DNA of 64,000 bases from Flavivirga abyssicola (GTDB lineage Bacteria > Bacteroidota > Bacteroidia > Flavobacteriales > Flavobacteriaceae). The stretch's first letter is position 1. Each line of letters begins with the position of its first letter. Position numbers and translations under genes: made by a program. The stretch is from positions 3,273,001 through 3,337,000 of the forward strand of contig NZ_CP141266.1 of assembly GCF_030540775.2 (NCBI RefSeq). The letters are read 5' to 3'. Below the pieces are notes generated by a model. The model made no database searches. It saw nothing but the letters and a program-made list of their open reading frames with translations, and was not told the origin of the DNA. Positions 19,200 through 56,062 of the stretch are shown piece by piece.

Positions 19200-19435
19200 C
19201 GTGAGTTCGACATAAAATTTATAAAAAAATAGACAAAAGCTCAATAAAATAAAGCTTGTCACCTTGAGCGCAGTCCTTTTAAAAATTCAGTTGTTTTAAT
19301 TAGGTTTCGACTTTAGTTTATACTGAGTACTTCGACTGCGCTCAGTATAAACTATAGCCGAAGTACTCAACCTGACATTTGAATATAATTGACCGATTTT
19401 CATTTAAATAAAACTAAAGTTGTATCGAACTCACG
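19200..19435. repeat. Composite inverted-repeat element 2 (about 236 bp)
   Basis: Bounded by perfect 11-bp inverted repeats CGTGAGTTCGA (19200-19210) and TCGAACTCACG (19425-19435). Inside lies a 13-bp perfect stem AGTTTATACTGAG (19315-19327) / CTCAGTATAAACT (19341-19353) and repeat arms GTCACCTTGAGCGCAGTC (19258) and ACTTCGACTGCGCTCAG. The termini resemble those of the elements at 9234 and 62021. Confidence 0.75.
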
Positions 19436-20670: not shown

Positions 20671-23600
20671 ATGAAACAACAAGCACCATATAAGCCTAAA
20701 CATAAAGTACGAATAGTAACAGCAGCATCATTGTTTGATGGGCATGATGCTTCCATAAACATCATGCGTCGAATTATTCAAGCTACAGGTGTTGAAGTGA
20801 TTCACTTAGGGCATGATAGAAGTGTGGAAGAGGTTGTAAATACAGCTATTCAAGAAGATGTGAATGCTATTTGTTTAACTTCATATCAGGGAGGTCATAA
20901 TGAGTATTTTAAATACATGTATGATTTATTAAAAGAAAAAGGTGCTGGTCATATCAAGATTTTTGGCGGAGGCGGAGGTGTAATCTTGCCTTCAGAGATT
21001 AGGGATTTGATGGATCATGGGATTACTCGTATTTATTCTCCTGATGATGGGCGTGAAATGGGATTACAAGGCATGATTAATGATTTGGTTAAGCAATCAG
21101 ATTTTGCAATTGGAGATACTTTAAATGGAGAAATCGATACCATAAAAGAAAAGCTTCCAAAATCAATAGCCCGTATTATATCTTCTGCCGAGAATTTTCC
21201 AGAAGTAGCTAAAGACACTTTAGATAAAATACATATTAAAAATAAGAATTCTAAAACCCCAGTTTTGGGTATTACTGGAACCGGTGGAGCGGGAAAGTCT
21301 AGTTTAGTTGATGAGTTGGTTAGACGATTTCTAATTGACTTTCCAGAAAAGACGATTGGCATTGTTTCGGTTGACCCCTCAAAACGAAAAACGGGAGGTG
21401 CTTTGTTAGGAGATCGAATTCGTATGAATGCTATTAACTCACCTCGTGTTTACATGCGTAGTTTAGCAACACGTCAATCTAATTTGGCATTATCTAAATA
21501 TGTAAATGAAGCCGTCGAAGTTTTAAAAGCCGCTGAATATGATTTAATTATTTTAGAAACATCAGGTATTGGACAATCTGATACTGAAATTATAGAACAT
21601 TCCGATGTGTCATTGTATGTAATGACTCCCGAATTTGGAGCAGCAACGCAGTTAGAGAAAATCGATATGCTTGATTTTGCAGATTTAGTTGCTATCAATA
21701 AATTTGATAAACGAGGAGCCTTAGATGCTTTACGTGATGTTAAAAAGCAATATATGCGTAATAATAATCTTTGGGATGTACCTCAAGAGCAATTACCAGT
21801 TTTTGGTACGATAGCTTCTCAATTTAACGATCCGGGAATGAACACGCTTTATAAAGCTGTTATAGATATGTTGGTAGAAAAAGCAGAAGCAGATTTGAAA
21901 TCAACATTTACTATTTCTGATGAAATGAGCGAGAAGATTTTTGTCATTCCGCCTTCAAGAACGCGCTATTTATCTGAAATAGCAGAAACAAATCGGGCTT
22001 ACGACCAAAAAGCAAATAATCAGGTTGAAGTCGCTCAAAAGCTTTATGGAATATATAAAACGATTTGTTCGGTTACGAATGTCACCTTGGGCGCAGTCGA
22101 AAGGTCTCTTATAGGAAAGCTTGGATTAAATCATGAAGAGATTCTTCGACAAGCTCAGAATGACAGTGATAAACTATTTTTAGGTTTATTAGTAAAGGAA
22201 TTCGATAGAGTAAAACTAAATTTAGATCCCTATAACTGGGAAGTTATTATCGGTTGGAATGAAAAAGTAAATACATATAAAAATCCAATCTATTCATTTA
22301 AAGTTCGAGATAAAGAAATAAAAATTAAAACACATACAGAGTCTTTGTCACATACTCAAATTCCTAAAGTGGCATTACCTAAATACCAAGCATGGGGAGA
22401 TATATTGCGTTGGTGTTTACAAGAAAATGTTCCGGGAGAATTTCCTTTTGCATCTGGCTTGTATCCATTTAAAAGAACAGGAGAAGATCCGGCTCGTATG
22501 TTTGCAGGAGAAGGAGGACCAGAACGTACCAACCGCCGTTTTCATTATGTAAGTATGGGATTGCCAGCCAAACGCTTGTCAACCGCATTTGATAGTGTAA
22601 CACTTTATGGTAACGATCCGGATTACCGTCCAGATATTTACGGGAAAATTGGAAATGCAGGCGTTTCAGTTTGTTGTTTAGATGATGCTAAAAAACTGTA
22701 TTCCGGGTTCAATTTAGCAGACGTTATGACTTCTGTGAGTATGACTATTAATGGTCCAGCTCCTATGCTATTAGGCTTTTTTATAAATGCCGCCATAGAT
22801 CAGCAATGTGAAATATACATAAAAGAAAAAGGTCTAGAAAAAGAAATAGAAGCTAAAATTGCTGTTATATATAAAGGAAAAGAGCGACCGAAATATAACG
22901 GAGAATTACCAGAAGGAAATAACGGTTTAGGATTGATGCTATTAGGTGTTACAGGAGATCAGGTCTTGCCCTTAGACATTTATAATGATATTAAAGTTAA
23001 AACGATATCTCAAGTTAGAGGAACAGTCCAAGCGGACATTTTAAAGGAAGATCAAGCCCAAAACACCTGTATTTTTTCAACCGAATTTGCATTGCGATTA
23101 ATGGGTGATGTTCAAGAGTATTTTATTGAAAATAATGTTCGTAATTTTTATTCGGTTTCTATATCTGGCTATCATATTGCCGAAGCAGGAGCCAACCCTA
23201 TTACACAGTTAGCCTTAACACTTTCCAATGGGTTTACTTATGTAGAGTATTACTTAAGTCGAGGTATGGATATTAATAAATTTGGTCCGAACCTATCGTT
23301 CTTTTTTTCTAATGGTATCGATCCAGAATATGCTGTCATTGGACGTGTTGCCAGAAAAATTTGGGCGAAAGCGATGAAGCATAAATATGGGGCTAATACT
23401 AGAGCCCAAATGCTTAAGTATCATATTCAAACATCAGGGCGCAGTTTACATGCTCAAGAAATAGACTTTAATGATATTCGTACAACTTTGCAGGCATTGT
23501 ATGCTATCTACGATAATTGTAATTCGTTACATACAAATGCCTATGATGAAGCGATTACTACTCCAACCGAAGAATCAGTACGTCGTGCTATGGCCATTCA

Positions 23601-24111
23601 GCTTATCATAAATAAAGAATTAGGATTAGCTAAGAATGAAAACCCAATTCAAGGATCTTTTATTATTGAAGAGTTAACCGATTTAGTAGAGGAAGCTGTA
23701 TTGCTTGAATTTGATAGAATAACTGAGCGTGGTGGTGTATTAGGAGCGATGGAAACCATGTATCAACGTAGTAAAATTCAAGAAGAAAGTTTGTATTATG
23801 AAACTTTAAAGCATAATGGTGATTTCCCGATAGTGGGGGTGAATACATTTTTAAGTTCTAAAGGATCGCCAACAGTACTTCCAAAAGAAGTCATTCGTGC
23901 GACAGAAGAAGAAAAGCAATTCCAAATAAAAACTTTAGAAAACCTTCATAAAGCAAACGATACAAAAGCGTTATTAAAAGAATTGCAAACGAAAGCTATT
24001 AACAACGAAAATATTTTTGAAGTATTAATGGAAGTTTGTAAAGTATGTTCTTTAGGAGAAATAACGAGTGCGTTATTTGAAGTAGGGGGACAGTATCGAC
24101 GAAATATGTAA
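20671..24111 (+). CDS. icmF: Fused isobutyryl/methylmalonyl-CoA-type mutase IcmF
   Basis: Adenosylcobalamin-dependent acyl-CoA mutase with built-in G-protein chaperone, 1146 aa. Domains in order: B12-binding domain (about 1-150) with [10 protein letters not shown], His25 being the cobalt ligand; MeaB-like GTPase (about 195-415) with P-loop GTGGAGKS at 203-210, [12 protein letters not shown] and NKFD; linker; mutase barrel (about 540-1146) with [20 protein letters not shown] and [14 protein letters not shown]. Residues 471-498 come from an in-frame palindromic repeat. IcmF interconverts isobutyryl- and butyryl-CoA in characterised cases; substrate here is inferred from architecture. Monocistronic. 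Confidence 0.93.
22081..22164. repeat. Palindromic repeat embedded in frame in icmF
   Basis: Left arm from 22081 (GTCACCTTGGGCGCAGTCGA, then AAGGTCTC to 22108) and right arm 22138-22164 (GAGATTCTTCGACAAGCTCA, then GAATGAC). The arms match the intergenic repeat pairs at 24189, 19258 and 55920. The unit is 84 bp, exactly 28 codons, and keeps the reading frame. Confidence 0.85.
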
Positions 24112-24476
24112 GCAGAGAACCACTTTTTGCGACAGCAAAAAGTGTGTGAATCGCTTATCCCGCGCTCACAATGTCATTAAGTTAAGGACAAAGGTGTCAG
24201 TCTGAGCGCAGTCGAAGACATTTAAACCTCTTACTTTCAATAGCGTTTCGACTGCGCTCAACGTGACAAAATAAAATAAATTCCCTTAACTTAATGACAT
24301 TGCCCGCGCGCAGTCGAGGGATCTCATTAAAGGAAACCATAAACTTAGTACCCTCTTTTTATCAAAGCAAAAGCGAGCTAGTTGTTTAATACTAAATGAT
24401 CATGTAAATCATATTAATTAACGCAACCATTTTCGAAATTAATCATCTTAAAGATAAAACCTTAAAAATCTATACA
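24112..24476. repeat. Nested palindromes downstream of icmF
   Basis: 365 bp without a gene. A hairpin CACTTTTTGC-GACA-GCAAAAAGTG (24121-24144) may be the icmF terminator although it lacks a T-run. Next is an 18-bp perfect inverted repeat AATGTCATTAAGTTAAGG (24170-24187) / CCTTAACTTAATGACATT (24284-24301). Nested within it is a repeat pair with arms CTGAGCGCAGTCGAAGA and TTTCGACTGCGCTCAACGTG. A further half-arm GCGCGCAGTCGAGGGATCTC starts at 24306. Confidence 0.75.
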
Positions 24477-55740: not shown

Positions 55741-56062
55741 ATATACTCCAATATATAAAGGGGCTAAAAGTGATATAATTTTCTTTATTATGTATAACCT
55801 GTGCTAAAATTTTAACTAATATATTCAATAATATAATGTAATTGGTTTTCAGTCAGGTAATTATTGTGAGTTTTGATAGTGCCTTACTAAAATGATAAAA
55901 GACAAAAAGAAATTCCTATGTCATGCTGAGCTTGTCGAAATACCAGTAAATTACTGATAATCAATATCGGTTTCGACAAGCTCAACCTGACAAATAGAAT
56001 TATAAAGACTTTTAAACATCCTCTTTTTTTATAAATTATTTGTTTTTAACTTAGAATTCCCC
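55741..56062. repeat. Gene-free spacer with a palindromic repeat pair
   Basis: 322 bp between convergent genes. Arms GTCATGCTGAGCTTGTCGAA (55920-55939) and TTTCGACAAGCTCAACCTGAC (about 55971-55991) form a pair; the flanks are AT-rich. The pair may serve as a terminator for both genes. Nothing else seen. Confidence 0.75.

Follow-up and report, generated by a model that had tools for sequence, protein, structure and literature searches.

The linker of the fused isobutyryl-CoA mutase/GTPase IcmF is a hot spot for the arms of short hairpin repeats, and it is quite probable that the in-frame acquisition of such arms, together with their fast turnover at this one place in many Flavobacteriaceae, explains the structure of the gene analyzed in this work. 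The window, that is, the whole stretch of 64,000 nucleotides under study, covers positions 3273001-3337000 of the host genome (4.68 Mb, one contig) and contains the following features:

20671-24111, plus strand: icmF, fused isobutyryl-CoA mutase/GTPase, 1146 amino acids in a single open frame
22081-22107, plus strand: 5' hairpin arm in icmF, coding for VTLGAVERS (residues 471-479)
22108-22137, plus strand: inter-arm stretch in icmF, ten codons (residues 480-489), outside the repeat
22138-22164, plus strand: 3' arm in icmF, in the opposite orientation, coding for EILRQAQND (residues 490-498)
19258-19351, no strand assigned: arm of the CCT variant between genes, matched over 19 nt, with a reverse-oriented arm after it at 19331-19351 (two mismatches)
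24196-24267, no strand assigned: 72-bp inverted pair of GCGCAG-type arms in the intergenic region downstream of icmF
55920-55991, no strand assigned: 72-bp inverted pair of GCTTGTCGAA-type arms between genes, from the subfamily to which the icmF 3' arm belongs

The product of icmF matched the NCBIfam IcmF model with 1727.5 bits (cut-off 1500). According to the original prediction, a single mobile palindrome of exactly 84 bp is inserted in this gene. That a repeat palindrome codes for part of a conserved enzyme, with its arms in frame at residues 471-479 and 490-498, was borne out by our analysis; a single, recent and clean 84-bp insertion was not. The 5' arm, a GCGCAG-type one, has the stem variant CCT/AGG and a T ahead of it (TGTC), and the 3' arm belongs to the GCTTGTCGAA subfamily (CTTG type), which occupies eight genomic places with up to two mismatches, icmF included, versus none for the control. 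The icmF copy is, in other words, a composite of two arms from two subfamilies, each of which has other copies in the genome. The other 15 inverted pairs listed for the genome never join the 5' arm type of icmF to its 3' arm type, and the inter-arm stretch 480-489 is absent from all of them. The presence of two arm subfamilies, together with that of single arms in other icmF genes (the 5' arm alone in L074 and L084 and the 3' arm alone in L076, by reading), led us to reject the transposition of one 84-bp unit.

As far as the whole genome is concerned, a 106-base query matched 16 places at E <= 1e-3, its own one among them (3.6e-8 for the best of the others; 40 of the 70 candidates were scored), and the arm pattern, with up to two mismatches, gave 92 matches versus four for the reversed control. 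The arms are about 25-27 nt long and begin with GTCA in most of the copies listed; they often form inverted intergenic pairs, and many single arms are present too. Sixteen inverted pairs were listed, 11 of which, including that at 55920-55991, measure 69-74 bp, the remaining ones being the icmF copy (84 bp) and four pairs of 82-120 bp. The base preceding the GTC-ended pairs outside icmF (n = 13, by reading) is T in 11 cases and C in two. The intergenic copies predicted at 19258 and 55920 were recovered between open reading frames of at least 80 amino acids, and the third one is real as well, its start lying at 24196 and not at 24189. One further copy of the ILKQVQDD type is found in the window. 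At 24161-24310 the arm pair 24196-24267 is enclosed by a further 27-nt inverted repeat (89%), and an outer word similar to the one around this pair was found near another arm (L147); the arm pairs may belong to a larger nested element. The abundance of the arms differs within the genus, G001 and G008 harboring one exact copy of the arm pattern each and the other ten congeners 12-55.

The analysis of the stems revealed that 33 of 34 distinct genomic arms (at most one mismatch to the pattern, outside frames longer than 200 amino acids, G-T counted as a pair) are paired at each of two variable positions, versus maxima of 26 and 22, respectively, in the shuffles. At the first stem position the pair is a standard one in 17 of the 34 arms; at the second, CG occurs in 18, GC in nine, TA in six and an unpaired CA in one. 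No unpaired CCA-like tail was evident on an unsystematic reading of the listed pairs and of the icmF arms.

The search for other in-frame protein copies, which had been proposed along with the prediction, gave a positive result. Five of 101 arm-like matches lie inside coding frames (judged for frames longer than 200 amino acids only): the two arms of icmF, one arm in argS, one in mtaB and one in a putative 225-amino acid open reading frame that has no NCBIfam match. The positions of the argS and mtaB arms are as follows:

G000:C1:2765141 (L004, L207): argS arm of the CCT/AGG variant, in frame, coding for VTLSAVER
G000:C1:3163619 (L185, L219): mtaB arm, a related arm read in another frame, coding for SHPERSRG

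Two other matches (L183 and L184, two mismatches) look like chance codons, and those of L036, L168, L180 and L206 fall in codons 3-11 of a stop-to-stop frame, apparently upstream of the start codon. In argS, the VTLSAVER word is placed shortly past QYTYAR and directly ahead of KEKELLKQ. Within the genus, the argS arm is of the CCT/AGG variant in G000 and of the ACA/TGT variant in G007, occurs in nested forms in G005 and G006 and is missing in G010 and G011; G001, G008 and G009 exhibit apparently opposite-oriented arms, as do, in a more decayed form, G003 and G004 (by reading). The same register is occupied by arms in other genera as well (L288, and L283 with a nested form), according to an alignment of 39 rows in which genera other than that of the window are represented by 28 loci, the best-scoring ones of 117 family genomes with a match. 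The mtaB arm is present in six of the 12 congeners, the decayed forms of G003 and G004 being counted, and this distribution does not fit the species tree, a hand-typed one with polytomies, on which it requires six changes.

Three pairs of sister genomes, each with 100/100 support on a tree built without linkers, allow a closer comparison. The state of the mtaB arm is different in each of them and the argS linker in two, the reverse arm being common to G001 and G009. In both genes the identity between sisters (gaps being scored as differences) falls over about 20 codons, i.e., the arm and roughly a dozen neighbors, and is normal beyond. As for icmF, the dip between G007 and G011 is wider (about 50-70 codons), and no dip exists between G000 and G006.

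To place the icmF segment among its relatives, 92 orthologous rows were aligned, 90 of which were retained after dropping two duplicates; nearly all of them are Flavobacteriaceae by title, with a few metagenome-assembled genomes named just Bacteroidetes or Bacteroidia. The genus set consists of 12 genomes, that of the window included, and the icmF stretch of one of them is the same as that of Flavivirga sp. 57AJ16 (L048, L056). It had been expected that orthologues would lack residues 471-498, and this expectation failed. Counting the window and its congeners, 48 of the 90 rows possess a long linker, with 37-54 residues between fixed columns versus 39 in the window, and all 11 congeners are long (38-47 residues, four of them falling one residue short of the window and the others equaling or exceeding it). 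The long linker is missing in 42 rows, 40 of which have 29-33 residues and are therefore shorter than the window by 6-10 residues, not by 28; the other two are L129, with 36 residues, and L081, with 38 and an arm at a later site. No row among the 90 lacks just the repeat-coded codons. Judged from the ends of the phmmer alignments, the stretch is 29 residues longer than in the IcmF of Cupriavidus (4xc6).

The mean amino acid identity among the 12 congeners is 0.51 in the segment, versus 0.92 for residues 30-460 and 0.96 for residues 515-1140, and no other icmF stretch compared is conserved so little; a conserved functional segment is unsupported by these values. According to the original prediction, orthologues carrying the same segment with a codon-level conservation absent from intergenic copies would refute it; since the segment is the least conserved stretch compared, this objection does not apply. 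The codons of the 5' arm rank second in rarity among 1137 nine-codon windows of icmF, and codon identity among distant icmF rows is raised there (ratio 1.25, eighth of 1137 windows); for the 3' arm neither rarity (143rd of 1137) nor codon identity (ratio 1.03, 396th of 1137) is unusual. The part of the published structure paper available to us (PMC10481361) names a linker lying between the G-protein domain and the mutase one. In the AF2 model, of which only the local region was used since the mean pLDDT of the whole is 56, the segment (local pLDDT about 70-88), which itself contains two short helices, is predicted to be flanked by helices 428-469 and 498-515, and such a tip would tolerate extra residues.

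The arms are concentrated in this linker. In 80 named loci, which total 486 kb and, being the 80 best of 583 relatives, are biased to near kin, the arm pattern was matched 21 times within icmF, always in the linker, and 17 times elsewhere, the reversed control giving no match. The forms observed by reading are heterogeneous, including arms at a later site of the linker (L081, L085, L113), palindromes nested in arms (L044, L046, L061, L088) and VIASEAKQS-like words in the same codons (L047, L048, L066, L087, L105). Since the long linker is widespread and the segment is the least conserved one, we suggest that it represents an old and fast-turning hot spot of separate arms.

The icmF arms show the stem variants and the complementary changes of the genomic pool. 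Indeed, among 19 distinct in-icmF arms (from 24 rows, two of the 26 match rows being omitted), 16 cells are changed on both sides of the stem, versus 6.0 (sd 2.0) in shuffles that do not correct for relatedness, and 85.7% of the cells are paired versus 77.1%; pairs with any two-sided change are about as many as in the shuffles (three versus 2.7). A Leu/Ser change in these arms is accompanied by a synonymous GAA/GAG change, for which selection on the protein alone does not account.

Other repeat words were also followed. The exact words VIASEAKQS and ILKQVQDD occur in 97 and 19 IMG/VR stretches, respectively, and VIPTEGG as a widespread repeat is unsupported, both patterns tried giving none; the exact CCT/AGG arm gave none either. 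A plasmid search with L105 returned two Persicobacter records, and the four translated repeat words were found in no paper of the literature searched. In the genus, with at most one mismatch, VIASEAKQS is confined to icmF, in G007 and G009, and is therefore not a local repeat there but a probable fossil or import. Neither VIASEAKQS nor ILKQVQDD was found outside icmF in the 80 named loci, nor, with up to two mismatches, in a 400-kb sample of G005 that did not cover its icmF and in which the arm pattern was matched eight times.

Different scenarios can be envisaged to explain these data. A single old insertion in an ancestor of the Flavobacteriaceae compared here, inherited vertically, with the short forms derived by deletion and the remaining diversity by drift, would account for the codon register common to all the congeners and to many genera, for the decayed-looking forms of Kordia, L073 and L080, and for the fact that the long and short states track the 90-row icmF tree, on which they require at least 18 changes versus a mean of 30.1 and a minimum of 23 after shuffling. 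However, 18 changes are still many, even if counted on a quickly made tree of which 28 forks are weak; moreover, the stem variants alter on both sides together, argS and mtaB vary among sister genomes in the arm family, nesting or presence, and the same codons are also occupied by words from a different repeat family, so that we consider a single ancestral event unlikely. The preservation of the stem pairing by compensatory changes, the synonymous one included, and the location of the arm between the two domains might also suggest that the hairpin was retained for a function in the mRNA or the DNA, for example to make translation pause between the GTPase and mutase domains. This appears very improbable, given that the long form is absent from 42 of the 90 rows, that three long rows (L073, L080, L094) show no arm by reading, that the position of the arm varies and that the genomic pool covaries likewise without icmF.

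A possibility to be taken seriously, even if on the whole we lean against it, is that most of the turnover is due to linker alleles being exchanged between species by homologous recombination, the arms being passengers. In the mtaB arm bin and the 12 preceding codons, the identity of G006 to G011 is 1.00 (few codons present) and 0.94, versus 0.22 and 0.64 between the sisters G000 and G006, and this relationship is reversed in most of the flanking bins; since the arm-free tract of G006 resembles that of G011 while most of its flanks resemble those of G000, small-tract alleles appear to have been exchanged or re-created. Similarly, L065 has an L067-like linker, and its 5' flank (residues 455-470) is closer to that of L067 (0.82) than to those of short-linker relatives (0.62-0.69), which favors exchange over a fresh insertion. 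The occurrence of VIASEAKQS in G007 and G009, neither of which has a second copy, points in the same direction. Exchange, however, cannot create arms, nested palindromes or opposite orientations, and the argS and mtaB tracts are very short for ordinary recombination.

The acquisition of arms in frame with their fast turnover, which we prefer, might have proceeded as follows. TGTC-tagged REP-like hairpin repeats would enter coding DNA and would persist where the frame is open and the protein tolerates the added codons, the IcmF linker between two helices being one candidate for such a tolerant place. In many Flavobacteriaceae this linker would have gained arms in frame, either through repeated acquisition or through replacement in place, and the tract might later decay, take nested palindromes and be swapped in short tracts among related species. 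The arrival of the arms was presumably a transposition-like step, and the turnover is likely to include short-tract recombination. The IcmF protein presumably still works, and the segment is probably tolerated without serving any selected function. More speculatively, and with some doubt on our part, the linker hairpins could be a standing generator of diversity, through in-place overwriting from the genomic pool or through interspecies swaps of less than about 75 bp; if this were true, the linkers of core enzymes would evolve in concert with a selfish hairpin family.

A question related to this process concerns the gene(s) that might mobilize the arms. No tagged arm was found near the Y1_Tnp genes of the 32 loci examined out of 63 matches. 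Partial arm words of 12 nt were found in two of these loci (L231, L252), and a wider core pattern gave one related word each in L237 and L239; the core patterns gave one match each in 102 kb near Y1_Tnp genes versus 5-8 in 400 kb of G005. Arm-related words near these genes are no commoner than the background, and a linked Y1/RAYT transposase as the mobilizer is unsupported by these counts. Other palindromes (GCTAGCGCGAGC, CCCGATAGCGCGGATTT) lie alongside the Y1_Tnp genes of the genus in L236, L237 and L239 and are perhaps the REP families of those genes.

The element itself is of a known kind; it is the pattern that is unusual. The recurrent colonization of one linker by several hairpin families, with rapid turnover and across a family, looks new as far as we searched. 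In the literature on the REPs of Flavobacteriaceae and on intragenic REPs of Bacteroidetes, covered mostly outside subscription journals, we found no report of a linker hot spot; REP counts have been published for two Flavobacterium genomes, according to the accessible part of PMC12306157. In the sources available to us in part, protein-coding palindromes have so far been described genome by genome and are best known from Rickettsia. One tolerant enzyme linker rebuilt repeatedly from hairpins across a free-living family would provide a countable natural experiment in which selfish DNA supplies protein sequence, and such linkers would have to be regarded as poor phylogenetic markers.

The comparison with known systems can be made with the Rickettsia palindromic elements (RPEs), with the CGTC-tagged REPs and with the GTAG REP/RAYT systems. 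The RPEs, as described in the accessible parts of PMC2229807, are Rickettsia-specific palindromes of 105-146 bp that are found between genes and in frame within conserved protein genes, the effect of the one in gmk having been judged neutral or slightly detrimental. The in-frame copies in conserved proteins (icmF, argS and mtaB) are in agreement with this picture, whereas the single arms of 25-27 nt, the composite and nested forms (84 bp for the icmF composite), the occurrence in Flavobacteriaceae and the recurrence at one linker are not. The GTAG REP/RAYT systems share with our arms the short palindromes in inverted pairs; unlike them, the arms are tagged by GTCA instead of GTAG and are not enriched near the 32 Y1_Tnp loci examined. 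A similar behavior is that of the CGTC-tagged REPs described in 2013, which, according to the accessible parts of PMC3733652, have a CGTC or TGTC end, a short hairpin, paired units and no known dedicated transposase, occur in Bacteroidetes and have intragenic copies, including some in tRNA synthetases, flexible linkers and loops being suggested there as tolerant sites. Our arms are likewise mostly TGTC-ended and frequently form inverted dimers. However, no CCA tail is evident by reading, and the CGTC-tagged REPs carry A-T at stem positions 1 and 2, whereas the second pair of our arms is mostly not A-T, and for this reason we do not class them as CGTC-tagged REPs despite their similar behavior; they also differ from those elements, as described in these parts of the source, in that a single linker is used recurrently, with nested forms and turnover, across a family.
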